Shown here: positions 37,362 through 46,045 of the stretch, in pieces
How the letters are laid out: each line of letters starts with the position of its first letter
Position numbering within the stretch: the stretch's first letter is position 1
NCBI GenBank assembly: GCA_027491915.1
Contig: JAOZGC010000002.1
Location: 310,001-374,000, forward strand
Direction: 5' to 3'
DNA from: Thermoproteota archaeon
GTDB lineage: Archaea > Korarchaeota > Korarchaeia > Korarchaeales > Korarchaeaceae
Length of the DNA stretch: 64,000 nt
Notes under the pieces: model-generated
What the model saw: the letters and a program-made list of their open reading frames with translations, nothing else
What the model was told of the DNA's origin: nothing
Databases searched by the model: none
Program-made: the position numbers and the translations under genes

Positions 37362-38207
37362 ATGCCGGAGATCAAGGTCAGGCCCGCCCGGAACTCCGAC
37401 AGGAGGCCTGTGGCCGAGTTCACCGCCAGGACCTGGGTGTGGGGGGACTACATCTCCTCGGTCTGGAGGAGGTGGATGGACGCCGGAGGGCTGTTCGTCG
37501 CCGAGATCGGCGGGAAGGTGGTGGGGGTCGTCAGGGTCTCCCTTAGGGCCGGCGGCGAGGCGTACATCCAGGGGGCCCGCGTCGCGCCGGGATTCAGGGG
37601 GGCGGGAGTCGGGAGGGCCATGACCTCGGAGGCCCTCAGGTGGGCTTCCTCCATGGGGGCTGGCTTCGCCACCCTCGCCACCTCCGAGGACAACCTGCCG
37701 GCCAGGAGGGTGGCCGAGGCCCTGGGGTTCAGGGTGGAGCAGCGGGTGGTCAGGGTCTCCGCCCCGAGGAAGAGGTGCCGGGCCCCGGGAGTCCGTCCCC
37801 TCTCCCCGGGGGAGGCCGCCTCCCTCATCTCCTCCCCGTCAGGAGTCAGGCCGGTGAAGTTCGACGAGTACTCCTGGTCCACCATGACCCCCGAGGACGC
37901 CGCCCGCTACGCGGAGGAGGGTTTCGCCGCCGGGGTTGGGGACCCACCCCGGGCGGCCGCCTTCTACCAGCCCTGGGAGGGACCCACCGTGATGGTCGAC
38001 TTCGTCTCGGGGGACCGGGCCGACTCCGAGGTCCTGGGCCTGCACCTGAGATCGGAGGCGATCTCCCTGTCCGCCGGCAGGGTCTGGGGGTACCTGAGGG
38101 ACGACGATGGGGTGATCTCCGGGCTGAGGCGGGCGGGATTCAGGGTCAGGAGCAGGGGGTACCTCATCTACAGGAGGGACCTCCGGACCGTGGCATCACC
38201 CGCCTAG
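37362..38207 (+). CDS. GNAT family N-acetyltransferase, two-domain
   Basis: A 281-residue protein with a GNAT domain in the first 140 residues: VRPARNSDRRPVAEF, GARVAPGFRGAGVGRAMTSE (acetyl-CoA loop), and ARRVAEALGFRVE. The second half (about 150-280) is an additional alpha/beta domain as in the protein at 31225, which suggests a shared subfamily. The ATG at 37362 has the TATA element at 37334-37342. The end overlaps the convergent ArsR gene by 12 bases. Substrate unknown. Confidence 0.85.
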   Translation: MPEIKVRPARNSDRRPVAEFTARTWVWGDYISSVWRRWMDAGGLFVAEIGGKVVGVVRVSLRAGGEAYIQGARVAPGFRGAGVGRAMTSEALRWASSMGAGFATLATSEDNLPARRVAEALGFRVEQRVVRVSAPRKRCRAPGVRPLSPGEAASLISSPSGVRPVKFDEYSWSTMTPEDAARYAEEGFAAGVGDPPRAAAFYQPWEGPTVMVDFVSGDRADSEVLGLHLRSEAISLSAGRVWGYLRDDDGVISGLRRAGFRVRSRGYLIYRRDLRTVASPA

Positions 38208-42069: not shown

Positions 42070-42477
42070 ATGTCCACGGTCAGGCGCAGCATCTCATTTC
42101 CCGTCGACCTGCTGCGGGAGTTCGACAGGTTCTCGGAGGAGAAGGGGTATCGCAGCAGGTCGAGGGCCGTGTGCGACGCCGTGAGGTACTTCATGTCCGA
42201 GGCCGGGTGGCCCGGGGGGGACGAGGAGGTGGTCGGGGTCATATCCCTGGTCTACGACCACACCGTCCCCGGCACGACCCGGGCCATGCTGGACCTGGAG
42301 CACGATCACGAGGATCTGATAGTGTCGACGGTGCACGTGCACCTGACCCACGAGGACTGCCTGGAGGTGATAATAGTCAGGGGGAGGGCCGAGAGGGTGA
42401 GGGAGCTGGCAGACTCGCTCCAGACCATCAGGGGGGTGAAGGAGCTCAGGCTGATGAGGACCAGGGTCACGCCCTAA
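42070..42477 (+). CDS. nikR: NikR-type nickel-responsive regulator
   Basis: A 135-residue ribbon-helix-helix regulator. The N-terminus (RRSISFPVDLLREFDRF and RSRAVCDAVRYF) is the DNA-binding part; the ACT domain carries the high-affinity nickel site, read here as STVHVHLTHEDCLEVIIV with two His and the Cys, plus the His upstream in LEHDHEDL. It likely represses nickel uptake or tunes hydrogenase genes; the hyp locus at 58708-63875 is in the same window. It ends in a 4-base overlap with the convergent ArsR gene. Confidence 0.95.
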   Translation: MSTVRRSISFPVDLLREFDRFSEEKGYRSRSRAVCDAVRYFMSEAGWPGGDEEVVGVISLVYDHTVPGTTRAMLDLEHDHEDLIVSTVHVHLTHEDCLEVIIVRGRAERVRELADSLQTIRGVKELRLMRTRVTP

Positions 42478-42872
42478 GCGCCGCCGCCGTGGAACAGCTC
42501 GGAGAGCGCCTCCATGATCTCGTCAACCCGCTCCCTCTCGAGGCTGTACACCACGTACTTTCCCCTCCTCCTCTCCCTGACGAGTCCCGCCATCCTGAGG
42601 TTCGCCAGGTGGTTCGACACCAGGGACTGGTCCCTGCCTATGAGCGCCGCCAGGGTGCAGACCGGCAGGCTCGTCTGGGAGAGCATGAACAGTATCTCTA
42701 GCCTGACGTCGGCGGTGAGGGACTTAAGCCTGAGAGCGAGATCCCTAACGACCTCCCTGTCCGGGAGTTTGATCTCATTTGGGATTCCGGTGGTCGATTT
42801 CAGGGCATTTAGGCATTTCTTATCGAGAATATCGGCGAGATCTCTCCCCTCAAGGGACTTTTTAGCGATCAT
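42474..42872 (-). CDS. ArsR family winged-helix regulator
   Basis: A 132-residue regulator with the ArsR fold: SLTADVRLEILFMLSQTSLPVCTLA, then DQSLVSNHLANLRMAGLVRERRRGKYVVYSL. The Cys in PVCTL sits at a frequent metal-ligand position. Its N-terminal 35 residues carry a second Cys (DKKCLNAL), as in the paralogue at 38196. CTAAATATTAGG (42892-42903) upstream on the minus strand is a strong TATA candidate. Next to NikR, it may also sense a metal. Confidence 0.9.
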   Translation of the reverse strand: MIAKKSLEGRDLADILDKKCLNALKSTTGIPNEIKLPDREVVRDLALRLKSLTADVRLEILFMLSQTSLPVCTLAALIGRDQSLVSNHLANLRMAGLVRERRRGKYVVYSLERERVDEIMEALSELFHGGGA

Positions 42873-42938: not shown

Positions 42939-44294
42939 TCACAGTCTTTTCGCCGTTAATTCATCCCCCTGAATTGGGGAAGATGGAGGGTAGGGCTTGA
43001 CCTCCGCCTCCAGGGGGCACCCCCCACCGCACGCCGGGAACAGGGGGCAGTCCCGGCACGCCTCCCCGGCGTACCTCCTCTCCCTCAGCTCGGCGCACTT
43101 CGGGTGGTCCCATATGTCCTCCCACCGATCCCTCAGCAGGTTGCCCAGCGGGTGGAAGTAGCTCTGGCACGGTATCGCGGTCCCGTCCGGCTCCACCGCC
43201 AGGGTTATGCTGCAGGCCGAGCAGAACTTGAGTCCTGCGTCCGCGGCCAGGGGGTTGAACTCGCAGTACCTGGTGACCCCGTACCACCTGAACTCCAGGT
43301 CGAGATCCGCCGCCTCGACCATCATCTCCTCCACCGCCTCGGCCGTCCGCCCCGGATCCGGCTCGAACCACCCCCTGACCTCGATCCCCCTCCCGCTGTA
43401 TATCAACCGGTTCAGGGAGACGGCGTCCGCACCCAGGTCGGCGGCCAGCCTGGCCAGTCCCCCCACGTCCCCAACGTTCAGCGTGCTCAGGGTGGCGTTG
43501 ACGTCCACGTATATCCCCAACTCGGCCAGGTTCCTTATCCCCTGGACCGTCTCCTCCCAGCTCCCCGGGACGCCTGTTATCCTCTCGTGGACCTCCCTCC
43601 TGTGGGACTCCAGGGTGACCTGGGCGTAGTCCAGCCCGGCGTCCACCAGCTCCTCGGCCAGCCTCCTGTCGGCCAGCCTCCTCCCGTTGGTGACCAGGCC
43701 CGTTACCAGGCCGAGGGACTCCCCCCTTCTGACGAGGTCCGGGAGGTCCGGCCTGAGCGTCGGCTCACCGCCGGTGAATACCACGTTGGGCGTCCCGATC
43801 TCGGCCACCCTGTCCAGCACCCCGAACCACCCCCTAGTCCCCATCTCGCGCCCGTCGGCCGGGGACGAGCTGTAGCAGTGCACGCACCTGTTGTTGCAGG
43901 CGTACGTCAGGGCGAGGTCGAACCTGAACGGGGCCGAGGTCCGGAGGCTCCCCGGATCTACTCTCTCGAAGCCGAGGTCGGTTATGGGGCAGACTTCCTC
44001 CCCCTCCAGGAAGGCCTTCAACCTCTCCGACGTCCTCAGGAAGTCCTCCCTGGCCTTTTCCTGATCTACCCCCCTGAACCTCTTCGTCGCGAGCCTGGCC
44101 GCCTCGTCGGGGGACATTCCCCTGAGGAAGGCCTCCGCGTAGAAGGCGGCGGTCCTGTTCAGGTAGGCGGACCTCTTCGCCCCGACCACGAGCACCCCTA
44201 TCCCCGAGGGCTCCATCCTGAGGTGCACCTTCATCCCGCCGTACCTGAAGGCCTTGTACCCGGGCCCGCGGCCCCTCCGCATCCCGAACCTCAT
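42939..44294 (-). CDS. Radical SAM/SPASM peptide maturase with PqqD-like N-terminus
   Basis: A 451-residue enzyme. Residues about 40-110 (SAYLNRTAAFYAEAFLRG onward) look like a PqqD/RRE-type peptide-recognition domain. The radical SAM cluster motif is CNNRCVHC (C133, C137, C140), followed by VVFTGGEPTLRPDL. The C-terminus is a SPASM domain with CSAC, IPCQSYFHPLGNLL, and a closing set CRDCPLFPACGGGC, enough Cys for two auxiliary clusters. The ATG overlaps the stop of the upstream gene by one base (TGATG) with GGAGGTG inside its last codons. That gene ends in a cysteine-repeat tail, the obvious candidate substrate. Confidence 0.92.
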   Translation of the reverse strand: MRFGMRRGRGPGYKAFRYGGMKVHLRMEPSGIGVLVVGAKRSAYLNRTAAFYAEAFLRGMSPDEAARLATKRFRGVDQEKAREDFLRTSERLKAFLEGEEVCPITDLGFERVDPGSLRTSAPFRFDLALTYACNNRCVHCYSSSPADGREMGTRGWFGVLDRVAEIGTPNVVFTGGEPTLRPDLPDLVRRGESLGLVTGLVTNGRRLADRRLAEELVDAGLDYAQVTLESHRREVHERITGVPGSWEETVQGIRNLAELGIYVDVNATLSTLNVGDVGGLARLAADLGADAVSLNRLIYSGRGIEVRGWFEPDPGRTAEAVEEMMVEAADLDLEFRWYGVTRYCEFNPLAADAGLKFCSACSITLAVEPDGTAIPCQSYFHPLGNLLRDRWEDIWDHPKCAELRERRYAGEACRDCPLFPACGGGCPLEAEVKPYPPSSPIQGDELTAKRL

Positions 44295-46045
44295 CACCCG
44301 GCACCTCCCCCGGCGCACGCGCACGCGCAGCTGACGCAGGCGCACGCGCACGCGCAGCTGACGCAGGCGCAGACGCACGAGCTGGCGGACGCCCTGGCCC
44401 TCCTGGTTGATCGGATCCTGCTCCTAGGGATTATCAGGGAGGCCACCCTGTCGGCCACTCCCTCGACGGCCTGGGAGACCGAGGAGGAGAACCTCTCTAT
44501 GGAGGTGGCTATCCCGTCGGCCGCCCTCTCTATCCCCACGACGACCTGCCCTGCCCCCCTCTCGACCGACCCGACCGGCTCGGGGGTCCCCGGTCCGGCG
44601 GTCTCCCCTCCCGTTCCCCCCTCGCGCCCCGCCCCGGACGCCCCGACCGTCCGGACCGACGGCCCCTGGATCGGCGCGGAGGGGGGAGGAGGCGGGACGT
44701 CGAACCACCACCAGCTCCCCCGAGGGACGAGTACGTACCCTCCCTCCTCCGACTCAGGCCTCATGGCCCGGCGCAGGTGGGCCCTGAATCTCTTGTCCAC
44801 CACGAGCCAGTCTATGTTCTGCTCGACGAGCCTCGCCCTTTCCTCCTGGGGAGACTCCCCTATCTCCCTCCAAATCTTCGCTATCTTCTCCCTGTAGAAC
44901 CTGAGGGTCTCCCCCCTCGAGAACCCGGCCATCTTGTCCTCGACCCTCCTGTGTATGGCCTTGACCACCCTGGCCGCGCAGGGGACGTCCAGGCCGTCCC
45001 CGGGCCTGACGCACTTCAGTAGGAGCTTCTCGTAGTAGCGCCTCGGCCTCTCCTCCCCCTTCTCCAACCTCAGGGGGTCGATCCCCAGGACCCTCAGCTC
45101 GCCCCTCATCGCCATGGGCACTATGATCGCGGAGAAGAGCCTCCCGTAGTCCGGTCGGCCCGGCCTCTCCAGCTCCGACAGGTAGACCACCTCGGCCGGG
45201 AGGAGCCTCTTCTGGGCTCCCAGGGCCTCGATCCCGAACCAGGGCTCCTCGTACTCCCCCCACCCGGCCGACTTGATCGCCTTATATCCCGAGTACGCGA
45301 GAGCCCCGACGGCCAGCAGGACGACGGCGAGGAACGCGAGGCCGAGCGCCACCTCGGCCGGCTCGAGTTCTCCTCCCGGCGGCCGAGCGTACCTCTGCAT
45401 GTACTCGGCCGGGAAGCTCACCCCGACCGTGATGTTCTCCCCGGGGTTCAGGTCCTCCCTCTCCCAGTATAGGTACAGCCTCCCATCCGTAGTCCCCGCG
45501 CCGTCGTAGTCCGGCTGGTTGAGGACCTCGTCCCTCCCGACCCCGGCCGGGAGGACGATCGAGAGCCTCAGGTCCCTGATCGGGGCGTCCTCGAACCAGG
45601 ACGGGGTGAACTTCAGGCCGACGTTGCCCGGGTTGGTCTCGTCCTCGTAGACGAAGTCCGGCACGGCGGCCTCTATCAGAAACGTCCTAGATTGGCCGGC
45701 CTCTATGGGCTCCGAGGGGTGTATTTCCACCGCGTAGTATCCTCCCTCCTCTATCTCGGAGAAGTCCACCTCCCTCAACCCTTCGGGCCAGGCCTCGTAG
45801 GCGTACAGGACCTCGAACCCGCCTTTCGGCATCCCCACCCTGACGAACCTGGATATGCTCCCGCTGTCCACCCGGACGGTCAGGTTGTAGAACAGGAAGA
45901 CGGTCGCGTTGGGTTGGACGTCCAGCCTGACGTACTCCCTCAGGATCTCGTACGAGAGACGGCGCGCGCCGGGCGAGCCCAGGACCGGGCCGGCCGCCAG
46001 TGCGGCGACCAGCGCGACGGAAGCCACCCTCCGGAAGTCGCCCAT
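44294..46045 (-). CDS. DUF2207-like membrane protein with a C-terminal cysteine-repeat tail
   Basis: A 583-residue protein. A signal peptide (about 1-23) leads to an extracytoplasmic beta domain (about 30-230), one membrane helix (about 237-258), and a cytoplasmic region with a winged-helix-like part (about 265-430). A Pro/Gly-rich linker and an amphipathic helix (about 500-545) follow. The last 29 residues hold ten Cys: two copies of CVSCACACA after a shorter CVCA unit, then GGGAG. Bacterial DUF2207/TPM-type proteins often end in Gly-rich tails; this one is cysteine-rich instead. Topology puts the tail in the cytoplasm, where the co-translated radical SAM enzyme can reach it. Family assignment is moderate. 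Confidence 0.82.
   Translation of the reverse strand: MGDFRRVASVALVAALAAGPVLGSPGARRLSYEILREYVRLDVQPNATVFLFYNLTVRVDSGSISRFVRVGMPKGGFEVLYAYEAWPEGLREVDFSEIEEGGYYAVEIHPSEPIEAGQSRTFLIEAAVPDFVYEDETNPGNVGLKFTPSWFEDAPIRDLRLSIVLPAGVGRDEVLNQPDYDGAGTTDGRLYLYWEREDLNPGENITVGVSFPAEYMQRYARPPGGELEPAEVALGLAFLAVVLLAVGALAYSGYKAIKSAGWGEYEEPWFGIEALGAQKRLLPAEVVYLSELERPGRPDYGRLFSAIIVPMAMRGELRVLGIDPLRLEKGEERPRRYYEKLLLKCVRPGDGLDVPCAARVVKAIHRRVEDKMAGFSRGETLRFYREKIAKIWREIGESPQEERARLVEQNIDWLVVDKRFRAHLRRAMRPESEEGGYVLVPRGSWWWFDVPPPPPSAPIQGPSVRTVGASGAGREGGTGGETAGPGTPEPVGSVERGAGQVVVGIERAADGIATSIERFSSSVSQAVEGVADRVASLIIPRSRIRSTRRARASASSCVCACVSCACACACVSCACACAGGGAG
44313..44366. repeat. Two exact tandem copies of a 27-base unit encoding the Cys tail
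   Basis: Bases 44313-44339 are repeated exactly at 44340-44366. The period is nine codons and keeps the frame. Much of the unit alternates purine and pyrimidine (GCGCACGCGCACGCGCA), which can favour Z-DNA and slippage. Confidence 0.95.

Follow-up and report, generated by a model that had tools for sequence, protein, structure and literature searches.

The window, the whole stretch of 64,000 nucleotides analysed here, carries on its minus strand two overlapping genes, which encode a membrane protein with a cysteine-repeat tail and, directly downstream, a PqqD-radical SAM-SPASM enzyme. The ATG start codon of the enzyme gene overlaps the TGA stop codon of the membrane protein gene (TGATG), exactly where the first-pass annotation of this DNA had placed the overlap. 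The features of the locus, each with the evidence on which it rests, are the following:

44294–46045, minus strand: membrane protein, 583 aa, proposed substrate, distantly DUF2207-like (open reading frame; kept in three phyla; predicted model)
45974–46045, minus strand: N-terminal hydrophobic signal, residues 1–24 (model helix 2–22; hydropathy of relatives)
45410–45955, minus strand: extracytoplasmic β domain, residues 31–212 (model; fold resembling ribophorin I and the domain at the N terminus of M1 aminopeptidase)
45263–45361, minus strand: transmembrane helix, residues 229–261 (model; hydropathy)
45059–45199, minus strand: small helix-strand domain, winged-helix-like and presumed cytosolic, residues 283–329 (model)
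44297–44377, minus strand: Cys-repeat tail CVCACVSCACACACVSCACACAGGGAG, residues 557–583, proposed modification site (conservation; pattern searches)
44312–44365, minus strand: two exact copies of the nine-residue unit CVSCACACA, a 27-bp DNA repeat (DNA repeat and translation)
42939–44294, minus strand: PqqD-radical SAM-SPASM enzyme, 451 aa, proposed maturase of the tail (domains, alignment, model, fold and sequence relatives)
44007–44261, minus strand: PqqD-like RRE domain of the enzyme, residues 12–96 (Pfam in the family; model)
43875–43898, minus strand: radical SAM cluster motif CNNRCVHC, residues 133–140 (three Cys invariant in 27 homologues)
43017–43223, minus strand: SPASM domain with invariant Cys 358, 376, 413, 416, 422 and 426 (Pfam and alignment of 27)

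Architecture of the two proteins

The structure predicted for the membrane protein, with a mean pLDDT of 64 and low values in linker and tail, comprises, in order, (i) an N-terminal helix, (ii) the β domain, (iii) one transmembrane helix, (iv) the small mixed domain, (v) further helices, (vi) a disordered linker, and (vii) the tail. According to hydropathy, the relatives mostly display one internal transmembrane helix with the positive side after it, extra hydrophobic segments being present in a few members. The helix-strand domain is placed on the cytosolic side because of the single transmembrane helix and the mostly positive flank that follows it in the relatives; the same single-helix topology makes a cytosolic location of the Cys tail most likely, in the compartment where the enzyme is found.

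The C terminus of the membrane protein reads ASSCVCACVSCACACACVSCACACAGGGAG up to the stop codon and includes ten Cys at residues 557–577. The ten Cys had been counted in the first-pass annotation within the last 29 residues; the number stands, whereas the span is that of the last 27 residues. The two exact CVSCACACA units reported there are also an exact repeat of 27 bp at the DNA level. The tail is the most conserved segment of the membrane protein, accommodating 13 of the 19 invariant columns in the alignment of 22 homologues, and its core is invariant although the homologous membrane proteins are only 20–43% identical to the window protein overall. Across the pattern matches, the CACACAGGG core occurs in 73 different DNA spellings; the search pattern fixes the residues of this core, so that the spellings disclose free use of silent codons only, and selection on the tail residues is read from the protein alignment, independently of the DNA pattern search.

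The window enzyme matches the Pfam families Radical_SAM (6e-25) and SPASM (1.5e-10), both of which are recognised in 27/27 family members. The PqqD match is below threshold in the window copy (E 0.015), as against 19/27 members with a match (best 6.6e-11), and the enzyme model (pLDDT 78) displays N-terminal strands followed by helices, the element order of an RRE; the domain assignment first proposed thus holds for CNNRCVHC, the radical SAM core, and SPASM in the window protein itself, and for PqqD in the family and the model. The six SPASM Cys are invariant; of the seven Cys in the textbook set, the last is missing from the window enzyme. An additional residue, Cys344, located just before the SPASM domain, is invariant in 27/27 enzymes. 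Sequence profiles place SkfB and PqqE nearest to the enzyme, and in fold the model lies closest to two RiPP maturases, SkfB and the precursor-bound form of SuiB, anSME being also matched. The NCBIfam scores of the enzyme family are far below the curated cut-offs.

Pairing of tail and enzyme across phyla

A scan of the genome collection with the enzyme alone discloses nine loci, titled Thermoproteota, Heimdallarchaeota, and Anaerolineae, and in 9/9 the upstream gene encodes a membrane protein that carries a signal and finishes in CA repeats and GGG. The DNA pattern of the tail was searched independently of the enzyme, together with a control pattern. Of 29 genomes in the phylum of the window, its own among them, 22 carry the tail pattern, once each, and in 19 of those 22 the enzyme gene directly follows; the pattern is absent from the other 121 archaea sampled, and the control pattern gave no match. 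In Chloroflexota, an in-frame tail is found in 20 of 301 genomes and is adjoined by the enzyme in all 20. The enzyme-only search of the same phylum recovers these 20 genomes at E < 1e-180, with only two others at E < 1e-70, and the search with the membrane protein alone recovers them once more, together with one genome (G292) containing a type B system, described below, all of them enzyme-bearing. Asgard genomes display the tail in 32 of 196 cases, 31 of the 32 carrying the enzyme and about 28 with the two genes adjacent by coordinates. The co-occurrence of tail and enzyme corresponds to Fisher p values of ~3e-29 in Chloroflexota, ~6e-29 in Asgard, and ~1e-4 in the window's phylum, values that treat related genomes as independent and so overstate the strength of the association; the pattern is replicated in the three phyla. 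The archaea-only scope of the first-pass annotation is therefore too narrow, since the system also occurs in Anaerolineae and other Chloroflexota.

Constant adjacency of the enzyme to the tail, also raised there, does not hold: 3 of the 22 tails in the window's phylum and about 4 of the 32 in Asgard are without an adjacent enzyme, which is mostly encoded elsewhere in the genome, ~30 kb from the tail in G026, under 5 kb in G027, and on other contigs in G482, G502, and G615. An intact tail in a genome without the radical SAM gene, an observation that would speak against a dedicated pair, is encountered in at most two drafts, G025 (91% complete) and G474, in which the tail is present, the neighbouring gene is not the enzyme, and no enzyme was detected. 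The opposite arrangement, an enzyme consistently paired with a small precursor instead, is not seen in the loci examined.

A few further loci deserve mention. One tail-pattern match (L104, in G329) lies outside any matching protein, with no enzyme beside it, and is counted as chance. The weak radical SAM matches of other archaea (E 1e-50 to 1e-62) fall outside the family, and three such loci examined (L149–L151) display no adjoining tail protein. At L219:432–5156 (G607), two tandem radical SAM genes of the enzyme family follow one tail protein. A weak relative of the membrane protein at L279 (G025:C183) ends in an Ala/Gly repeat tail without Cys repeats and may represent tail loss, the enzyme not having been found in G025.

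More distant enzymes (E ~1e-97 to 1e-115) pair in Asgard with DUF2207-like proteins ending in repeated CHSA, here called type B, and similar tails recur in two Chloroflexota as well as within one genus of the family to which the window belongs. Both tail types place a small residue, in most cases Ala, ahead of each Cys, which makes the Ala carbons of the tail candidate acceptors. In a tree of 75 proteins, the enzymes separate into a (CA)n clade and a (CHSA)n clade (supports 99/97 and 97/99), each spanning the three phyla, the finer branching order being unsure as the tree program warned of long branches. The A and B labels of the tree derive from the enzyme scores, and the tails, read separately, agree with them wherever a full-length tail protein is present. 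Since the two tail types map to two enzyme clades, each across three phyla, the tail type, judged from the sequences, follows the enzyme clade and not the host. Beside one type B enzyme, L063:3854–4786 encodes a Cys-rich repeat protein with 34 Cys in 310 aa, comprising units like CPTGAKCPS and ending in a likely transmembrane segment.

Related systems and gene neighbourhood

The enzyme resembles the sactipeptide and ranthipeptide maturases SkfB, CteB, PapB, and AlbA in the combination of (i) an RRE/PqqD domain, (ii) a radical SAM core, (iii) SPASM-type clusters, and (iv) a Cys-rich substrate. These maturases act on small peptides and are usually encoded with protease or transporter genes. The tail proteins linked to the enzyme are membrane proteins of ~500–735 aa, as opposed to the small leader-core precursor of a classical RiPP. 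The layout of an RRE with a radical SAM-SPASM enzyme is shared with PqqE/PqqD as a family resemblance; PqqE acts on PqqA, a small peptide, in which it forms a C-C bond, and no PQQ genes are seen next to the pair. Modification of residues such as Cys on real proteins is performed by other radical SAM-SPASM enzymes, QhpD and the anaerobic sulfatase maturases (anSME), but their substrates are enzymes or enzyme subunits and not the repeat tails of membrane proteins.

On the side of the proposed substrate, the membrane protein shares with DUF2207 (YciQ-like) proteins the signal, the external β domain, the transmembrane helix, the cytosolic part, and a low-complexity tail. The DUF2207-like label given in the first-pass annotation is backed by weak matches in relatives: the window protein itself gave no significant Pfam match, and no protein of its genome matches DUF2207 over the cut-off; type A includes 5 members out of 22 with a weak match to DUF2207_C (best 0.0028), and type B matches DUF2207 at 1.8e-5. 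The tails of ordinary DUF2207 proteins are rich in Gly and Ser and are not known to be linked to an enzyme.

The closest published idea concerns MNIO (DUF692-type) enzymes, predicted to modify the Cys-rich C-terminal tails of TIGR04222 membrane proteins (PMC12452194). Both systems comprise an unstructured, Cys-rich C-terminal tail of a membrane protein and a genetically linked RiPP-type enzyme, with a modification predicted to be carried on the protein. However, the MNIO is an iron enzyme of a different, unrelated superfamily and not a radical SAM enzyme, the TIGR04222 system is mostly found in Actinomycetota, and its tails are Ser/Gly-rich with scattered Cys and predicted to be periplasmic (PMC12452194), whereas the tail described here is predicted to be cytosolic. 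The TIGR04222 profile gave no match in the type A proteins tested; one type B protein reaches 20.8 bits against a cut-off of 43, and because of this sub-threshold match the two substrate families may be distantly related. No MNIO gene adjoins the window pair. The pair is not covered by any curated family of NCBIfam or Pfam, and no paper on DUF2207 with radical SAM or on the pair was found in a literature search that covered work outside paywalls and preprints; the tail sequence, searched in papers, matched unrelated texts, most of them nucleotide strings.

The gene neighbourhood differs among the phyla. A class I methyltransferase gene is located near the enzyme at 20 loci of Asgard and 13 of Chloroflexota, as a rule downstream (for example L004:7285–8043, L008:7254–8009, and L003:8402–9178), which suggests that more than one step takes place there; it does not adjoin the pair in the window's phylum. 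In Chloroflexota, a paralogue of the enzyme of ~380–395 aa is found in addition at most loci of the Anaerolineae type (L006:7286–8458, L139:6054–7220, L141:5635–6798, and others); this paralogue retains the PqqD domain together with the GGE motif and has lost all radical SAM and SPASM Cys, so that its role is probably binding only.

No protease or exporter family is recognised among the recurrent close neighbours of the pair, and the direct neighbours in the window, an ArsR-type HTH regulator and a PIN protein, bear out the first-pass observation that neither function is encoded beside it. Just downstream of the pair, the window encodes a NikR-type nickel regulator and an ArsR-family regulator (42070–42477 and 42474–42872), kinds that are often metal-responsive; they are not recurrent neighbours of the pair elsewhere. 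In the window's phylum, genes for a Sir2-type deacylase and a GNAT acetyltransferase are frequently found after the enzyme gene (L001:7301–8956, L069:4582–6200), and the GNAT of the window, at 37362–38207, displays weak similarity only (~31% over 110 aa).

Proposed modification of the tail

Conserved in this form, the pair points to an undescribed chemical modification of the tail of a full-size membrane protein. The co-occurrence in three phyla, the tracking of enzyme clade by tail type, and the predicted cytosolic tail lend strong support to the proposal of the first-pass annotation that the Cys tail of a full-length membrane protein has an enzyme of its own, and the enzyme is likely to be a dedicated maturase of that tail. 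Counted against the maturase are the unlinked tails and enzymes and the two drafts with no detected enzyme, as well as the weak PqqD match of the window protein and the position of the methyltransferase away from the pair in the window's phylum.

We infer the following course of events. Insertion of the membrane protein would place the β domain outside the cell and leave the Cys-repeat tail at the C terminus facing the cytosol; there the enzyme would bind the protein, at the tail or near it, through its PqqD-like domain, which would guide the modification. The radical SAM centre and the SPASM clusters would then oxidatively modify the repeated (small residue)-Cys units, the most likely bond linking the Cys sulfur to a carbon of a neighbouring residue in a thioether, as SkfB does on a small peptide. 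Thioether formation, suggested by analogy from the relationship to SkfB and the Cys content of the tail, is put forward tentatively, at slightly short of an even chance. After modification the tail would probably remain attached to the protein, forming a rigid or metal-binding appendage in the cytosol, and the linked class I methyltransferase would probably act in the same pathway in Asgard and Chloroflexota.

Other radical chemistry on the tail, such as epimerisation of Ala or of the residues flanking Cys, which would bring all thiols to one face, is unlikely. SPASM-type enzymes include peptide epimerases, the alternation of (AC)n or (HSAC)n would suit an alternating configuration, and the invariant Cys344, outside the usual SPASM set, could serve as hydrogen donor; however, the nearest solved relative by both sequence and fold is the sactisynthase SkfB, and the tail is built around Cys, like thioether substrates. 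The most likely ranking of the chemistries accordingly places thioether formation first and epimerisation after it. It is rather improbable that the tail remains unmodified as an array of Cys ligands for metal or Fe-S clusters, the enzyme modifying something else or using the cluster: CxC and CxxxC/His repeats, as found in the tail, could bind soft metals, but the change of tail type with enzyme clade fits direct recognition, and the enzyme carries a peptide-binding RRE domain.

The architecture also resembles a leader followed by a C-terminal core, as if the membrane protein were an oversized RiPP precursor from which the tail, once modified, is cleaved and set free as a small product. This is improbable to a marked degree, given that no protease or exporter is recognised among the recurrent close neighbours or directly beside the window pair, and given a body with a transmembrane helix and two folded domains that extends far beyond a leader. 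Finally, the exact 27-bp repeat of the window could have marked the tail as a low-complexity DNA artefact or a product of drift, with a coincidental neighbour; this explanation is refuted by the same tail residues in three phyla, in proteins of only 20–25% identity with freely varying silent codons, by the co-occurrence statistics, and by a tail pattern that is present once in a whole genome and has no control matches.

Taken as a dedicated maturase, the radical SAM enzyme might convert the cytosolic Cys-repeat tail into a poly-crosslinked or radically rebuilt, permanent appendage, representing a new class of protein modification that has a (CA)n and a (CHSA)n dialect and spans two archaeal phyla and Chloroflexota, with the methyltransferase and, in Anaerolineae, the dead RRE-bearing copy as helpers; this full proposal is held provisionally, with doubt and belief nearly in balance. 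The two dialects, with their matched enzyme clades, provide a natural experiment on specificity, and the named strain Anaerolinea thermolimosa IMO-1 (L006) carries the pair, so that its native tail is directly examinable. If the proposal is true, RiPP-type radical chemistry would produce a permanent component of a membrane protein and not a secreted peptide, would have persisted in deep lineages of archaea as well as in Chloroflexota, and would provide a function-linked handle on an uncharacterised family of membrane proteins.
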